The position numbers were made by a program, and so were the translations under genes. Of a stretch of DNA of 64,000 bases, positions 4,715 to 60,136 are shown one piece after another. The stretch lies in NCBI RefSeq assembly GCF_000235405.2, contig NC_017095.1:620001-684000 (forward strand), given 5' to 3'. The DNA is from Fervidobacterium pennivorans DSM 9078 (GTDB taxonomy: Bacteria; Thermotogota; Thermotogae; Thermotogales; Fervidobacteriaceae). Position 1 is the first letter of the stretch. Each line of letters begins with the position of its first letter. The notes beneath the pieces are model-generated. The model was given only the letters and a program-made list of their open reading frames with translations, was not told the DNA's origin and made no database searches.

Positions 4715-5608
4715 TCATAGTGTTTTCACTTCTTCTGAAATTTTTTCACCAAACTTATATCTTGCAAAGTAATCCAATAGAACATAAATAGTTTGAGAAA
4801 TTGTGATCAAGATTATAACAAAAATCCCGTCTTCAAGGTCAGCGTTCAGTGCTCTTGCAAAGAAATAATTCACAGAAAAATGTGCACCAAGAGATGTCCA
4901 AAAACTTTGTCGTGAATCGAGCAAGTATATGTATAAAAATCCAGCAGAAAAATAGTAAGGTACTTGTATCATATAGAGTTGAAAATCGCTCAGTCCATTT
5001 AAGCCAATACCACCCAACCTATTTTCATGAAGTATTGTGAATAGAGACAGAGAAAACAGAAGTGCAAACGTATTGTTCAAAGCCTTGCTATAACCTTTAT
5101 AAATAAAAACTCTTATAATCAATTCTTCATAGAAAGCCAATACAAATACTTGCAGTATTTCTAACCAGAAGAGCCAACCTTCAATTATATCCACTTGACT
5201 CTTTACATAAAACAACGAAGCGATATGTATTCCAGGAAGTAGTATCACCGTAACGTGTGTAAGAAATGGAACGTACAACCCGAATAATAGCGATTTAATT
5301 GGCTTTTTTGTAAATAGAGAAGAAATCTCTCCAAAATAGTTTTTTAAGCCTTCTTTAGTATTTGAAAGATATACAACGGTAATCGATAGTAAAAAGTAAA
5401 AAAATGTATTCACGGCAGGTTCGAGAAGTCCGTAAATAAAGTTAAGCATGTTGTCTTTAAAGAATGGAGAACCGATACTACGTTGGAAAAACTCTCCACC
5501 GTTAATCAGTTTCTCTATCGAAATGGTTATATGCGTGCTATACTGCATCCACAAGACGACAAAAGCTATAGAAAGTACATAAAGTAATACTTGCTTTGAT
5601 TTACGCAT
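4715..5608 (-). CDS. CPBP/CAAX-type intramembrane metalloprotease (locus A, gene 3)
   Basis: A 297-aa multi-span protein with the three conserved motifs of the CPBP (ABI) family: EELIIR at about residues 161-166, a histidine at 194 (ILHENR) and GAHFSVN near 242-247. These provide the metal-binding and catalytic glutamate, histidines and asparagine. In Gram-positive bacteriocin operons such proteins give self-immunity; in eukaryotes relatives cleave CAAX peptides. Here it is the last gene of a three-gene minus-strand locus, two bases after the preceding gene and followed by an intrinsic terminator. A close paralogue, broken by a frameshift, lies at 10202-11094. Its actual substrate is unknown. 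Confidence 0.85.
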   Translation of the reverse strand: MRKSKQVLLYVLSIAFVVLWMQYSTHITISIEKLINGGEFFQRSIGSPFFKDNMLNFIYGLLEPAVNTFFYFLLSITVVYLSNTKEGLKNYFGEISSLFTKKPIKSLLFGLYVPFLTHVTVILLPGIHIASLFYVKSQVDIIEGWLFWLEILQVFVLAFYEELIIRVFIYKGYSKALNNTFALLFSLSLFTILHENRLGGIGLNGLSDFQLYMIQVPYYFSAGFLYIYLLDSRQSFWTSLGAHFSVNYFFARALNADLEDGIFVIILITISQTIYVLLDYFARYKFGEKISEEVKTL

Positions 5609-5610
5609 CT

Positions 5611-6618
5611 TTAATTACTCCTTTCACGAACTTTGATTTCTTGAAAAAATAACTCTGGAAAGACCTCACCCGAGTCATACACTTCCAATTTTATTTTAGA
5701 TGAACCCGTCCCTGGATAATAATATCTTGACTTACTATCCCCTCTGATTTTGTAAGTAACCCTTGGAGCGTAGTAAATCCAGTTTACGTTAAAATCGTTA
5801 CAAAAACCATAAAATGCGTATTCTAAGGATTCACCGGGTTTAATTGTACATGGTAATCTTTGGCTCACATCGACAGATGTTACGTATTTCTTTACATTAC
5901 CGACTATCTCTATTTTTAATACTTCAACATCTGCTTGTGTGACATTCTCAATCCTTTCTTTGTAAAAAGGTAATTCTTTATTCGATTTTTTGAAGAGCAC
6001 TCCATTACTCTCTCCCTCACTTCTAAAAACTAATAACCTTTCTTCTTCGGGAGTAGTTCCTATAATTATTAAATCCAATGGATATTCGTACTCTCTATTT
6101 TCAAACGTAAATATAAGTTTTTTCAAATTGTATTCTTTACCAGGTTCAACATCTTCATTTGAGAATCTTAGATAATATATACAAGAATACAAATCTGGAA
6201 ATATTATTCTGGAAATATCGACAATTTCTTGTTGAGATATTCTTATTTTCTTACCATCATCGCATACCATTTCCTTAAAAGATAATGTTTTTAACACATT
6301 TTTTCTTCCAAAAATTTCTATTTTGAAATCTTCAAAACCTTCGATACCTTTTTGTTCTTCTTGAAGTATGTTGCTATCTAATATGCCCGTTTTCGTTTTT
6401 GAAAAAACAACGTGGCGAACACTAACATCGTTTGGAGGTTCAATGACAAATTTTTTACTTCCAGTGCACCCTCTTCTAATATAAACTGAATTTCGATCCC
6501 ATTTAGCGAAAATGATTCTATCGCTTATTTCTCCAGATATAATGAGAATGAAAACACTAATCAGTAAAATGAGAGAAAAGACTATAGTTGATAGGTGCTT
6601 AAGGATAAACTTTTTCAT
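5611..6618 (-). CDS. membrane-anchored extracytoplasmic protein (locus A, gene 2)
   Basis: A 335-aa protein with one N-terminal hydrophobic span (residues about 9-28, no lipobox) and a long, beta-rich remainder predicted to face outside the cytoplasm. No domain is recognised. Only a few cysteines are present (for example RRGCTGS, MVCDDG, LYSCIYY, LPCTI), some of which might form disulfides. It follows the small secreted gene after a hairpin at 6648-6670 and precedes the CPBP gene by two bases, so the three should be co-transcribed. A paralogue with two frameshifts lies at 11097-12080 in the same relative position. It might be an immunity, chaperone or secretion accessory protein, but nothing in the sequence decides this. 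Confidence 0.6.
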   Translation of the reverse strand: MKKFILKHLSTIVFSLILLISVFILIISGEISDRIIFAKWDRNSVYIRRGCTGSKKFVIEPPNDVSVRHVVFSKTKTGILDSNILQEEQKGIEGFEDFKIEIFGRKNVLKTLSFKEMVCDDGKKIRISQQEIVDISRIIFPDLYSCIYYLRFSNEDVEPGKEYNLKKLIFTFENREYEYPLDLIIIGTTPEEERLLVFRSEGESNGVLFKKSNKELPFYKERIENVTQADVEVLKIEIVGNVKKYVTSVDVSQRLPCTIKPGESLEYAFYGFCNDFNVNWIYYAPRVTYKIRGDSKSRYYYPGTGSSKIKLEVYDSGEVFPELFFQEIKVRERSN

Positions 6619-7594: not shown

Positions 7595-7926
7595 ATGAAG
7601 AATCCTTTCAAATTTGGAACGGTTGTTAAGGGCAGTGATTTTTGTGATAGAGAATCTGAAATGGAGATGATTCTTTCGGATATTAGATCTGGAACACATA
7701 TAACACTTATCTCACCAAGGCGGTACGGTAAGACTTCGTTGATACTGAATCTGTTTGATAGGATAGACTTTGCCGATACGTTTTACATCGATGTTATGGG
7801 CTTAACAACTGTGAGTGATTTTCTAAATGCTTATACAAAAACCTTCATTGAGAAACTCGGTGGCAAGAGTAAGATTGATACGATCGTGAAGAAATTCTTG
7901 CCTAAAGTTGAGGGATTACAGTTGAC
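7595..7926 (+). pseudogene. AAA-type ATPase, 5' part, split by a tnpB element
   Basis: The ATG follows GAGGTAAGTGGT. The N-terminal part of a P-loop ATPase of the archaeal-ATPase/ATPase_2 kind is visible: FCDRESEMEMI, then the Walker A loop ISPRRYGKTSL (lysine near residue 46). The coding sequence continues only to VEGLQLT, where the inserted element begins; translation then adds a few element-encoded codons and stops at 7942. The rest, including Walker B and the winged-helix tail, resumes at 9305 in a frame that joins perfectly if the element is removed. The role of the ATPase is unknown; such proteins are often linked to mobile or defence regions. Confidence 0.8.
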
Positions 7927-8080
7927 CTACTCCCCGCACTGAAGTGCGAGGATTCTTCATGCGGTATGTTAGGAAACTAACCTTAACCGCATCGGACTGG
8001 TCAAAGTCCCTACTCCTATTCCATTATAGGAATTCGGAGATACCTTTTTGAGTATATTCAATTCTCCATTTACATCGGCG
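7927..8080 (-). ncRNA. candidate omega RNA at the right end of the tnpB element
   Basis: In characterised tnpB elements an RNA overlapping the 3' end of tnpB and the right end serves as guide scaffold, with flanking host DNA as guide. Here the 3' end of tnpB, 42 bases of non-coding DNA and the end hairpin at 7932-7951 are in the right places. Extent is a guess from family knowledge, not read from the sequence. Confidence 0.35.
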
Positions 8081-9204
8081 TTTAACACTGTTCCACAGTG
8101 CTTACAAATATACAGTCCACGGTGTACTCTGTTAGTTTTATCAATTGTTCCACACCTTGAACATGTTTGTGATGTGTATGATTCGTTTACTTGTATCACT
8201 GTTATCCCATTTACCTTTGCTTTGTATCTTAGTTTCTCTATGAACTTTCCATACGGCATCTGATGAAGTTTTTGATTATTCTGTTTTCCTATATCGATAT
8301 TCGTTATCCCTTTGTTTAGTTGTCCTATTACTATCGTTCCTATTCCGTTGCTTAAACAATATTCAACGATTTTCTTTGACGCTTTGTGCACAAAATCGTT
8401 GATATAGTTTTTCTTGTATCTGTATAGCTTATGCAAACGTTTAGATGTTTTGATTTTTTGCCTATCAAGTATAGCTTTTAGTTTTGCTGTTGTTTTGTTA
8501 ATTAATCTTAGTTTCGATAGTAATATCTTTCCATCGATAATGAAACTATTTACTCCATCAGTGCACGTTGCAAAGTTACTTACTCCAAGGTCAATGGCTA
8601 AAAACTTGCTACTATCCAAGTGGATTTGTTTTTCTTGGTCTTTGAGAACATCGATAAGTTGTCTGTAAATTATCCTGAGAGAGTAACTGATATATCCAAA
8701 GGATTGGTATGGTACAAGTTCAACTTGCTGGATTTGTATAGTATCGAACGATAGAGTTTTTGGTAACTCTATCCATATGTAAGTGGATTCGATACTATAC
8801 TTAGATTTGAGATATTCTTTTGTTTGCTTGGAAAGAGATAAACGAAGTTTGTTACCAATTAACCTGAAGCCTTGTTCTTTCCAAATGACAGGAAAATGAC
8901 CGTCTTTAGGTTGGTATCGAGGACATTTGGTGTGTTTATCGAAGGTATTCTTCCAAGCGATTTGAAGCTTTTCAATTACGGCTTGAGCACTTTGAGAATG
9001 AAGATTACGAGCAAAAAAGCTATCCTTAAGTTTTTGCTTAAGTTCGTAAATTGAAGTACCATTTTCGATTACTTCGTGATTAGCAACGTTCCAGAGCTTG
9101 GAAGCTGAGTAAGTGAGATGACCAAAGATGATGGCAAGTTTCTTATCAGTTTTCCTCGAAAGGTCTAACATGAAGCACTTAGTTAAGTATTGTTTCAACG
9201 ACAT
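7969..9204 (-). CDS. tnpB: TnpB RNA-guided nuclease (IS605 OrfB family)
   Basis: The ATG at 9204 (MSLKQYLTKC) fits the family start; an in-frame ATG at 9279 lies inside the end hairpin and is unlikely. The 411-aa protein has the N-terminal helical region, a RuvC-I motif (AIDLGVSNF, Asp about 205), a four-cysteine zinc finger (CSRC and CKHC) and a RuvC-III Asp in LNADVNGELN (about 377). At the RuvC-II position the usual glutamate is replaced: the strand reads IVIGQLN. A glutamate in VNESYTSQTC (about 341) may substitute, as in the TnpB subgroup described with a rearranged active site. It lies alone, antisense to the ATPase gene it interrupts. Confidence 0.88.
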   Translation of the reverse strand: MSLKQYLTKCFMLDLSRKTDKKLAIIFGHLTYSASKLWNVANHEVIENGTSIYELKQKLKDSFFARNLHSQSAQAVIEKLQIAWKNTFDKHTKCPRYQPKDGHFPVIWKEQGFRLIGNKLRLSLSKQTKEYLKSKYSIESTYIWIELPKTLSFDTIQIQQVELVPYQSFGYISYSLRIIYRQLIDVLKDQEKQIHLDSSKFLAIDLGVSNFATCTDGVNSFIIDGKILLSKLRLINKTTAKLKAILDRQKIKTSKRLHKLYRYKKNYINDFVHKASKKIVEYCLSNGIGTIVIGQLNKGITNIDIGKQNNQKLHQMPYGKFIEKLRYKAKVNGITVIQVNESYTSQTCSRCGTIDKTNRVHRGLYICKHCGTVLNADVNGELNILKKVSPNSYNGIGVGTLTSPMRLRLVS

Positions 9205-9304
9205 CACCACACTTTGGAATGTACTAATACAATTATGCCATACAAAACTAGATAACTCATAGGCTCTGTATCCCCGCATTGAAATGCGAGGTTTTAGAGC
9301 CTTG

Positions 9305-10052
9305 AAATTCTATAAATATCGGTTCGTTTGGTATAAGCTTGAATATATCACCGACTAATTCAAATATAGAAGAGGTTATCTCATTACCGGAAAAGTTGAA
9401 TAAGAGAGTTGTCGTAGCTATCGATGAATTTCAAGAGATCGCAAATATAAAAGAATTCGATTTGCTTGCGATTTTCAGGAAAAAGGCTCAGTTTTTTCAA
9501 AATACAACATTCTTATTCGCTGGTAGTCGAAGACACGTTATGAGGGATATCTTTTCAAATCCAGAAAGACCTTTCTATAGATTCTCTAAGATAGTAAATA
9601 TCGATGTACTTGATAAGACTGAAACAGTGAACTTTATAGAGTATAAGTTCAGGTCAAGTCTGATAGATATCGTTAAAGATATTTGTGAGATGATCTACGA
9701 TATATCAGAAGGGCATCCGTATTATATACAGTATCTTTCATATACGTTGTGGAATGTCATTAGTCTCAAAAGGCGTTCACGTTGTGAAATAGAAGATTTC
9801 AACGAAGCCTTGAATCAAGTCTTATACTCAGAACACCCGATGTTTGAAATGCTATGGGATTCTTTAACGCCAAATCAAAAGACGGTTTTAAGAAATATCG
9901 CATTTGATAAATCGCCGTACGATTTGCAAATGAGTGCCGGGAGTGTGAAAAGAGTTATCGATACACTTGTGAAAGCTGATGTTATCGAAAAGCGGAACGA
10001 AAAGTATAAAATAATTGATCCTATGCTAAGATTGTGGCTGAAAAAAGAATAA
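9305..10052 (+). pseudogene. AAA-type ATPase, 3' part
   Basis: Continuation of the gene begun at 7595. The joined frame reads VEGLQLT into NSINIGSFGIS, then Walker B (VVVAIDEFQEI), a sensor-like FAGSRRH and a C-terminal winged-helix-like segment (TPNQKTVLRNIAF to IIDPMLRLWLKKE), which is the usual architecture of ATPase_2 proteins. A TTG at 9339 could start an N-terminally truncated product, but it would lack the P-loop. No frameshift or stop is seen within this half, so the tnpB insertion looks recent or the gene could be restored by precise excision. Confidence 0.8.
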
Positions 10053-10201: not shown

Positions 10202-11094
10202 TCATGTCAATTTCAATTCTTCAACTTCTTCTCTGTTGACCTTATGCCTAAGGATGTAATCCAGAAAAACATAAATAACTTGGAAAACTGTAATTAGAAG
10301 AATAACAAAAATTCCATCCCTAACGTCAGATTTCAAGCATTTAGCAAAGAAATGGTTTACAGAAAAATGTGCACCAAGAGATGTCCAAAAACTTTGTCGT
10401 GAATCAAGCAAGTATATGTATAACAATCCAGCAGAAAAATAGTAAGGTACCTGTATCATATACAGTTGAAAATCACTCATCCCATTCAAACCAATACTAC
10501 CAAGCCTGTTATTGTGAAGTATTGTAAATAAGAACAGAGAAAATAAAAGTGCAAAAGTGTTATTTAAAGTTTTACTGAAACCTTTGTAAATAAAAACTCT
10601 CATAGTTAATTCCTCATAAAACGAAAACACAAATACTTGCAATATTCCTAACCATAATGGCCATCCTTCAATTATGTCTACTTGCATTTTTACGTAATAT
10701 AATGAAACGTTATTCATCCAAGGAAGAAGTATTACTATAATGTGTGTAAGAAACGGTACATATAATCCAAATAATAGCGACCCAATTGGTTTCTTTGTAA
10801 ACAGCAAAGAAATCTCTCCAAAATAATTTTTCAAACCTTCCTTACCTTTCGAAATGTATACAAGAAGTATCGATAAAAACAAGTAAAAAACAACATTCAC
10901 AAGAGGTTCAATAAGACTGTAAATAAAGTTGAGCATGTTATCTTCAAAAACGGTGAGCCGATACTGCGTTCGAAAAGTTTTCCACCGTTAATTAATGTTT
11001 CTATAGAAGAAGCTACATCCCCACTATAATCCAGCCATAAAATGATAGCAACTATAGAAATTGTGTAAAGTAATGCTTGCTTTAATTTACGCAT
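10202..11094 (-). pseudogene. CPBP-type protease paralogue with one frameshift (locus B)
   Basis: Paralogue of the gene at 4715-5608, starting at 11094 (MRKLKQALLYTI). Colinearity holds to GSPFLK, then the frame shifts and the continuation MLNFIYSLIEP lies one frame over. Restoring one base in the five-base A run at 10946-10950 (plus strand) gives GSPFFEDNMLNF, matching the intact copy (GSPFFKDNMLNF). The rest keeps EELTMR, LHNNRLG and GAHFSVNH, the CPBP active-site motifs. The gene is either decaying, phase-variable by slippage or affected by a sequencing error; the neighbouring paralogue has two similar lesions. Confidence 0.8.
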
Positions 11095-11096
11095 AT

Positions 11097-12080
11097 TTAA
11101 TTACCCCTTTCGTGAGTGTTGATTTCTTGAAAGAGCGATTTGGGAAATATTTCCCCCGAATCGTCTACTTGCAATCCTATCTTTGATAAACCTGTACCTG
11201 GATAATAATGTCTTAACTTATTGTCTCCTCTGATTTTGTAAGTAACCCTTGGAGCATAGTAAATCCAGTTTACCTTAGAATCGTTGCAAGAACCATAAAA
11301 AGCGTATTCTAAGGACTCACCAGGTTTAAGTATACAAGGCAATTTTTGGCTTACGTCAACGAATGTTATATATTTATTTACATTACCAAATATTTCAATA
11401 TCTGCTTGTGTAACGTTCTCAATTTTTTCTCTGAAAAATGGTAATTCTTTATCTAATTTTTTGAAGAGTACGGTATTAGTCTGACCTTCACTTCTGAAGA
11501 CTACTAAACTTGCTTGCTCTGGGGTACTCCCTATAAAGGTTACATCCATTGGATATTCGTACTCTTTATTTTCAAACGTAAATATAATTTTTTTCAAATT
11601 ATACTCTTTACCTGGTTGAACATCTTTATATGAGAATCTTAAATAATACAAGCAGGAGTACAAATCTGGAAATATTATCTTAGAAATATCAACAATTTGT
11701 TGTTGTGATATTTTTATTCTCTTACCATCAGCACACACCACTTCTTTAAAAGATAATTTTTTGATACATCTTTTCTTCCGAAAACTTCTATTTGAAAGTC
11801 TTGAAAACCTTCGATACCTTTTTGGATTGTGTCATTGTCTAAGATACCCGTTCTTACCCTTGAGAAATTAACAGAACGAACACTGACATCGTTTGGAGGC
11901 TCAATTACGAAATGCTTGCTTCCAATATATCCTCTTCTGAGATAAATTGAACCTCGATTCCATTTAGCAAAAATTATTCTGCTACCGATTTCTCCGGATG
12001 CGATGAGCACAAAGACATTAATAAGTAAAACGAGAGAAAAAAACTATAGTTGATAAATGTTTAAGAATAAACCTTTTCAT
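11097..12080 (-). pseudogene. membrane-anchored extracytoplasmic protein paralogue with two frameshifts (locus B)
   Basis: Paralogue of the 335-aa protein at 5611-6618. The start is the ATG at 12080 (MKRFILKHLST). A +1 change in a T run (seven Ts on the minus strand against a shorter run in the intact copy) breaks the N-terminal membrane span near 12042, and a -1 change in an A run near 11760 breaks the frame again after GRKDVSK. Between and after these points the protein matches its paralogue closely (FAKWNRGSIYLRRG, ISQQQIVDIS, PRVTYKIRGD). It lies two bases upstream of the CPBP pseudogene, keeping the operon order of locus A. Confidence 0.8.
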
Positions 12081-59971: not shown

Positions 59972-59992
59972 GTAAGTGAAAAAATTAAATAG

Positions 59993-60085
59993 CCCAGAGG
60001 GGAGCTCCATACTGCGGGGCTGAGAGGAAGGGGGCAACCCTTCGACCCTTTGAACCTGATCCGGGTAATACCGGCGGAGGGACAT
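59993..60085 (+). ncRNA. TPP riboswitch (THI element)
   Basis: The aptamer core is easily read: GGGGCTGAGAGG, then CCTTTGAACCTGATCCGGGT and TAATACCGGCGGAGGGA, the conserved thi-box bases that bind thiamine pyrophosphate. It lies between the promoter at 59943 and thi4. The 3' strand CGGAGGGA can pair either in the aptamer or with the following terminator stem, so TPP probably controls transcription termination. Confidence 0.96.
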
Positions 60086-60136
60086 GGGCAATACAAAGAA
60101 AGATAGAAATCTAATAAAATGTTTTTAACTGAACAG

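Follow-up and report, generated by a model that had tools for sequence, protein, structure and literature searches.

An E_alt-class TnpB in a tnpB-only IS200/IS605-type element of Fervidobacterium pennivorans, a predicted RNA-guided nuclease

Two types of TnpB, E_can and E_alt, have been defined and an ExxxxxxCxxC pattern given; in typical TnpBs the canonical glutamate precedes the zinc finger by about 50 residues, and a tree built from about 800 representatives separates the two types clearly (PMC10711439). E_alt is described there as the sum of a D-Phi-G clade and a DPG clade, the Fanzors lying within the latter, and it is suggested that the moved glutamate may lower trans-cleavage of single-stranded DNA (ssDNA) (PMC10711439). 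Clades with a rearranged RuvC-II have been named RII-r3 and RII-r5, and one RII-r5 TnpB orthologue is reported to cut guided double-stranded DNA (dsDNA); 27/59 orthologues were active overall, so that class membership gives no assurance of cleavage. Some orthologues processed omega RNA without dsDNA cleavage in that screen, and other substrates have been suggested (PMC10278001). In the Fanzor SpuFz1, residues E541, D383, N385 and D606 are the ligands of two Mg ions (PMC10432273), and the Fanzor glutamate is placed on the loop that leads from the fifth strand into the TNB domain (PMC11423790). A literature search for Fervidobacterium and TnpB together found no paper.

We analysed a stretch of 64,000 nucleotides from Fervidobacterium pennivorans DSM 9078 (contig NC_017095.1, positions 620,001 to 684,000), hereafter the window, which carries a tnpB gene on the reverse strand (Table 1). 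By its match to a curated family model, NF040570 guided_TnpB (205.3 bits, cut-off 100, E 1.7e-60), the product is a TnpB of the RNA-guided nuclease family, and the Pfam models OrfB_IS605 and Cas12f1-like_TNB both score above gathering. Residues are numbered in the 411-residue form, counted from the start chosen in the preliminary description of this locus, in which the motifs DLG, IVIGQLN, VNESYTSQTC and NADVN begin at residues 205, 291, 339 and 375. That description had reported a RuvC-II strand lacking the usual glutamate, another glutamate ahead of the zinc finger, and intact RuvC-I and RuvC-III aspartates, and all of this holds: G294 occupies the canonical glutamate column, followed directly by Q295 at the usual D/N place, the other glutamate is E341 as numbered there, and D205 and D377 are intact.

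In the E_alt D-Phi-G TnpBs (PMC10711439) and the RII-r TnpBs (PMC10278001), as those sources describe them, the canonical RuvC-II glutamate is likewise replaced, a glutamate lies six residues upstream of the zinc finger, and the D-Phi-G of RuvC-I and the RuvC-III aspartate are kept. Nothing essential distinguishes the window protein from them, the spacing from E341 to C348 fits the published ExxxxxxCxxC, and it is assigned here to RII-r as a whole, either RII-r3 or RII-r5. It is an ordinary member of this large, already described E_alt/RII-r class. Membership in a TnpB subgroup with a rearranged active site, which had been proposed from the sequence, is favoured by the spacing, the invariance of G294 and E341 (n = 45) and the predicted fold; the further expectation that the copy could be a useful example is supported as regards membership and not as regards rarity, since the subgroup is large and already known. 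This removes a false alarm, since the whole clade lacks the glutamate at the usual place and the arrangement has been published. Two neighbouring categories were rejected. Fanzor or pro-Fanzor status needs DPG together with E_alt (PMC10711439), whereas the window protein has DLG in RuvC-I and comes from a bacterial IS200/IS605-type element; derived TnpBs carry NADXN outside the rearranged clades (PMC10278001), and here NADVN is present but RuvC-II is rearranged.

Table 1. Features of the tnpB locus, in window coordinates.
Feature	Position	Strand	Remark
tnpB-only IS200/IS605-type element, 1390 bp, intact	7922..9311	-	Right end, left end, empty site
tnpB, 411 aa	7969..9204 (stop codon within coordinates)	-	Longer frame to 9279 = 436 aa
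RuvC-I aspartate D205 (DLG)	8590..8592	-	D in 182/183 rows, gap in 1
G294, column of canonical RuvC-II glutamate	8323..8325	-	Within AF2-predicted strand 288-295
E341, alternative RuvC-II glutamate	8182..8184	-	7 residues before C348
Zinc-finger region, C348..C351 and C367..C370	8095..8163	-	
RuvC-III aspartate D377 (NADVN)	8074..8076	-	Within AF2-predicted helix 376-388
Probable omega/right-end RNA scaffold, 3' tnpB end and right end	7922..8045	-	5' limit approximate
Predicted guide, 20 nt assumed	7902..7921	-	Host sequence adjoining right end
Left-end hairpin, GGCTCTAAAACC...GAGCC	9262..9301	-	
TTTAT, predicted TAM/target motif	9312..9316	-	Adjoins left end
Interrupted ATPase gene, 5' part	7595..7921	+	
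Interrupted ATPase gene, 3' part	9312..10052	+	PF01637, E 5.5e-7, 30.1 bits, below the 33.2 cut-off

Gly294 together with Glu341 is found in 168 of 183 aligned homologues, a recurrence that excludes chance as the source of the combination, and the canonical glutamate without Glu341 in 15; none of the 183 rows has both glutamates or neither. Before counting, we removed further occurrences of the window copy, duplicate sequences and frames that did not cover the region. The related-locus sets were picked with patterns from E_alt relatives, which biases the proportions of the two types, but the absence of mixed rows is informative. In a same-phylum sample gathered without sequence patterns, consisting of the loci of best matches and fetched stretches rather than every match, 24 of 40 rows (window included) had Gly294 and Glu341 and 16 the canonical glutamate with another residue at 341. 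With the genome-contig loci, one viral scan and the remaining loci added, the counts were 96/111 and 15/111, and a second viral scan brought the set to its full 183 rows, no frame passing for 3 of 80 loci at this stage. The genome-contig search retrieved no relatives with the single TnpB protein as query, but did so with an alignment query. Fisher p values for the two columns concern related rows and so do not stand for many independent events. Twelve columns are invariant in a 45-row alignment (P95, D205, G207, G225, G294, E341, T344, S345, R362, D377, G380 and I384), and ExxxxxxCxxC or CxxG occurs in 92 of the 168 G294 rows, the other 76 lacking that pattern.

A tree of 78 rows, computed with the trait columns left out, needs one change between the E_can and E_alt states (SH-aLRT of the split 86, not starred), and the window copy lies on it with other E_alt members. 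Its rows are the complete set of 13 long E_can rows, 18 E_alt rows taken from the loci up to L062, and random draws of 22 from 70 further genome or contig rows and 25 from 69 viral rows, three further long rows being in no draw. A recent E-to-G loss in the window copy was rejected, the Gly294 and Glu341 combination being common across homologues. By the aligned sequences, the arrangement is ancient and fixed and not a recent lesion, and the apparently missing RuvC-II glutamate has most likely been moved rather than lost.

The zinc finger may add a second stage to this history. On another tree, of 67 rows, the window copy and three G076 copies (introduced below), all with zinc cysteines, are sister to 25/25 zinc-less E_alt rows with a support of 95, and the zinc-less state arises by one change; the zinc columns were also left out of this tree, which has long branches and biased sampling. 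Tentatively, this tree suggests that the small window lineage, which bears a zinc finger, is sister to an E_alt clade that lacks one. That it survives as the sister of a large clade of this kind, so that relocation of the glutamate would have preceded loss of the zinc finger, is a real possibility that we rate somewhat short of probable. If it is true, the lineage would be well suited to asking whether the zinc finger became dispensable through the move of the glutamate, and it may help to place the two events in order of time. Searches for literature on zinc-finger loss in TnpB identified no paper, although one may still be in print.

Structure prediction is consistent with the relocation. 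The AF2 model of TnpB (45 sequences; mean pLDDT 87.8, pTM 0.57) places E341 directly after strand 335-340 and before the zinc domain, as described for Fanzor. Folded alone, the RuvC-TNB part reached a pLDDT of 87.9 and a pTM of 0.85, and VIA-align superposed it on SpuFz1 (8gkh; Z 12.4, rmsd 3.5 over 184 residues), on the mimivirus Fanzor2 (9b0l; Z 15.6, rmsd 3.4 over 199) and on ISDra2 TnpB (8h1j; Z 14.3, rmsd 4.8 over 179), with higher Z, up to 18.7, for Cas12f chains. The superposition proposed in the preliminary description agrees, at the level of a model, with a Fanzor-like site, in which the glutamate likewise sits in the alternative place. Ungapped counting inwards from both ends of the ranges aligned with 8gkh (10-206 of the model and 374-621 of the chain) would pair D205 with SpuFz1 D383 and D377 with D606. 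Whole-model matches over most of the chain gave an rmsd of 16-20, which is taken to be lobe movement. ISDra2 TnpB (8h1j, 8exa), which we take to be of the canonical-glutamate type, has its overall fold in common with the window protein and presumably the same right end and guide logic.

Elements of the IS200/IS605 type have hairpin ends, produce no target duplication and are bordered on the left by a short target motif of fixed sequence, and the element around tnpB displays these end features. Its right end is set by GGTCAA, common to all nine copies compared and followed by divergence, and its left end by nine compared upstream regions, whose flanks read TAY at the end in 9/9 and TTAY in 8/9 when the match beside the left-end hairpin is taken for each locus and those inside coding sequence are ignored. 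With the element removed, the ATPase gene reads through in an exactly restored frame of 355 aa; compared with four intact orthologues (56-61% identity), it has no gap or insertion at the junction, and hence no target was duplicated. There is no Y1 transposase in the element or anywhere in the window genome, so that the element, described as a tnpB-only derivative working like an IS200/IS605 element, may have been left stranded and open to decay. An IS607 origin was rejected: the genome's two resolvase matches (708674 and 792039) lie about 80 kb or more away, and a related tnpB has a Y1 tnpA. The window genome has one full copy of this tnpB, and DNA comparison found no second copy there. A remnant of a different E_alt tnpB (L002; VPEEYTSPICPVCG, YHRDGVG) lies in the same genome at G000:C1:137774-137965.

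The final 124 nt of the element, up to the right end, have a folding z of -4.73, none of 200 shuffles being as stable. Across seven copies and a slightly longer stretch, 5 of 50 predicted pairs were changed on both sides, and these paired changes, in a stretch that is also coding, hint at RNA structure at the right end. Rfam with gathering thresholds reported nothing at the right end; below gathering, 7910-8045 (-) matched sot0042 (33.7 of 88 bits), a sense overlapping transcript according to Rfam, and HgcC (32.9 of 50), and one might guess that HgcC is itself a tnpB right-end RNA. The guide is positioned by the IS200/IS605 rule given in PMC10711439. In the mechanism proposed here, the 3' end of tnpB and the right end would yield an omega RNA that takes the neighbouring host sequence as its guide, and TnpB, by analogy with its family, would bind this RNA from its own 3' end. 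It would then find a TTTAT-like motif beside a match to host sequence 7921-7902 and, again as expected from the family, cut the restored empty ATPase site, with the consequence that retention of the element would be favoured. Within the RuvC site, E341 would be supplied by the loop that joins the last RuvC strand to the zinc domain, in place of the strand bearing G294, and D205, E341 and D377 would together hold two metals.

Related tnpA-tnpB elements are found in G076, a genome of the same family but another genus, with three intact copies at 75-77% protein identity and the same right end. A Y1 tnpA lies upstream of tnpB in C13, C14, C9 and C8b, whole in C13 but split or carrying stops in C14, C9 and C8b; no tnpA lies upstream of the window copy, nor of C21, C17, C8a and C18. 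Pairwise NG86 estimates of dN and dS among the three intact G076 copies were 0.028/0.266, 0.037/0.402 and 0.044/0.667, and dN/dS between intact relatives was about 0.07-0.11 (NG86) or 0.12-0.18 (YN00); dS against the window copy is near saturation, and the values describe the lineage and not the recent history of that copy. Three G076 tnpB pseudogenes (L044, L045 and L046, in C17, C9 and C8) have two in-frame TGA stops in common, near residues 78 and 350; it appears that the gene was copied when already dead, with mobilisation probably in trans.

It is very probable, in our assessment, that the locus encodes an E_alt/RII-r D-Phi-G TnpB with D205, E341 and D377 as catalytic residues, in a tnpB-only element at TTTAT, which would cut the empty site guided by omega RNA; the analysis shows the sequence, its conservation, the element ends, the empty site and a predicted fold, and we infer metal binding, RNA processing, cleavage and retention. 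The preliminary description also allowed for a catalytically dead TnpB, which might act at most as an RNA-guided DNA binder or else be a decaying transposon gene. The absent canonical glutamate, the lack of a Y1 transposase in the window genome and the three related G076 copies with in-frame stops would suit such a protein, but it appears highly improbable when the rearranged pair is the rule across homologues (168/183 rows), multi-copy elements included, when D205, E341 and D377 are all present in an intact frame, when dN/dS is low between intact relatives, and when the element ends are intact, unlike those of a domesticated gene. TldR-like nuclease-dead TnpBs combine a broken RuvC triad with an exapted, non-mobile locus. 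The window copy, with its complete triad and intact mobile element ends, was not placed among them.

A rearranged site that works but whose chemistry has changed, for example towards nicking, towards other substrates or towards weak collateral activity, also seems unlikely; guided dsDNA cleavage by an RII-r5 TnpB (PMC10278001) speaks against it, whereas the orthologues found to process omega RNA but not to cut dsDNA in the published screen (PMC10278001) and the suggested reduction of ssDNA trans-cleavage by the moved glutamate (PMC10711439) lean towards it. An active RNA-guided nuclease of a known subgroup is the most likely description of the protein. If active, it would be an E_alt TnpB for which omega RNA, guide and TAM are already predicted.

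Two further observations concern other parts of the window. A gene pair, an Rce1-like protease and a 335-aa protein, occurs twice, once on each side of the interrupted ATPase gene, at 4715-6618 and 10202-12010, the likeness of the pairs being judged by eye and the second copy of the 335-aa gene being split into two frames. A TPP riboswitch scores above the Rfam gathering score at 59988-60100 (+).
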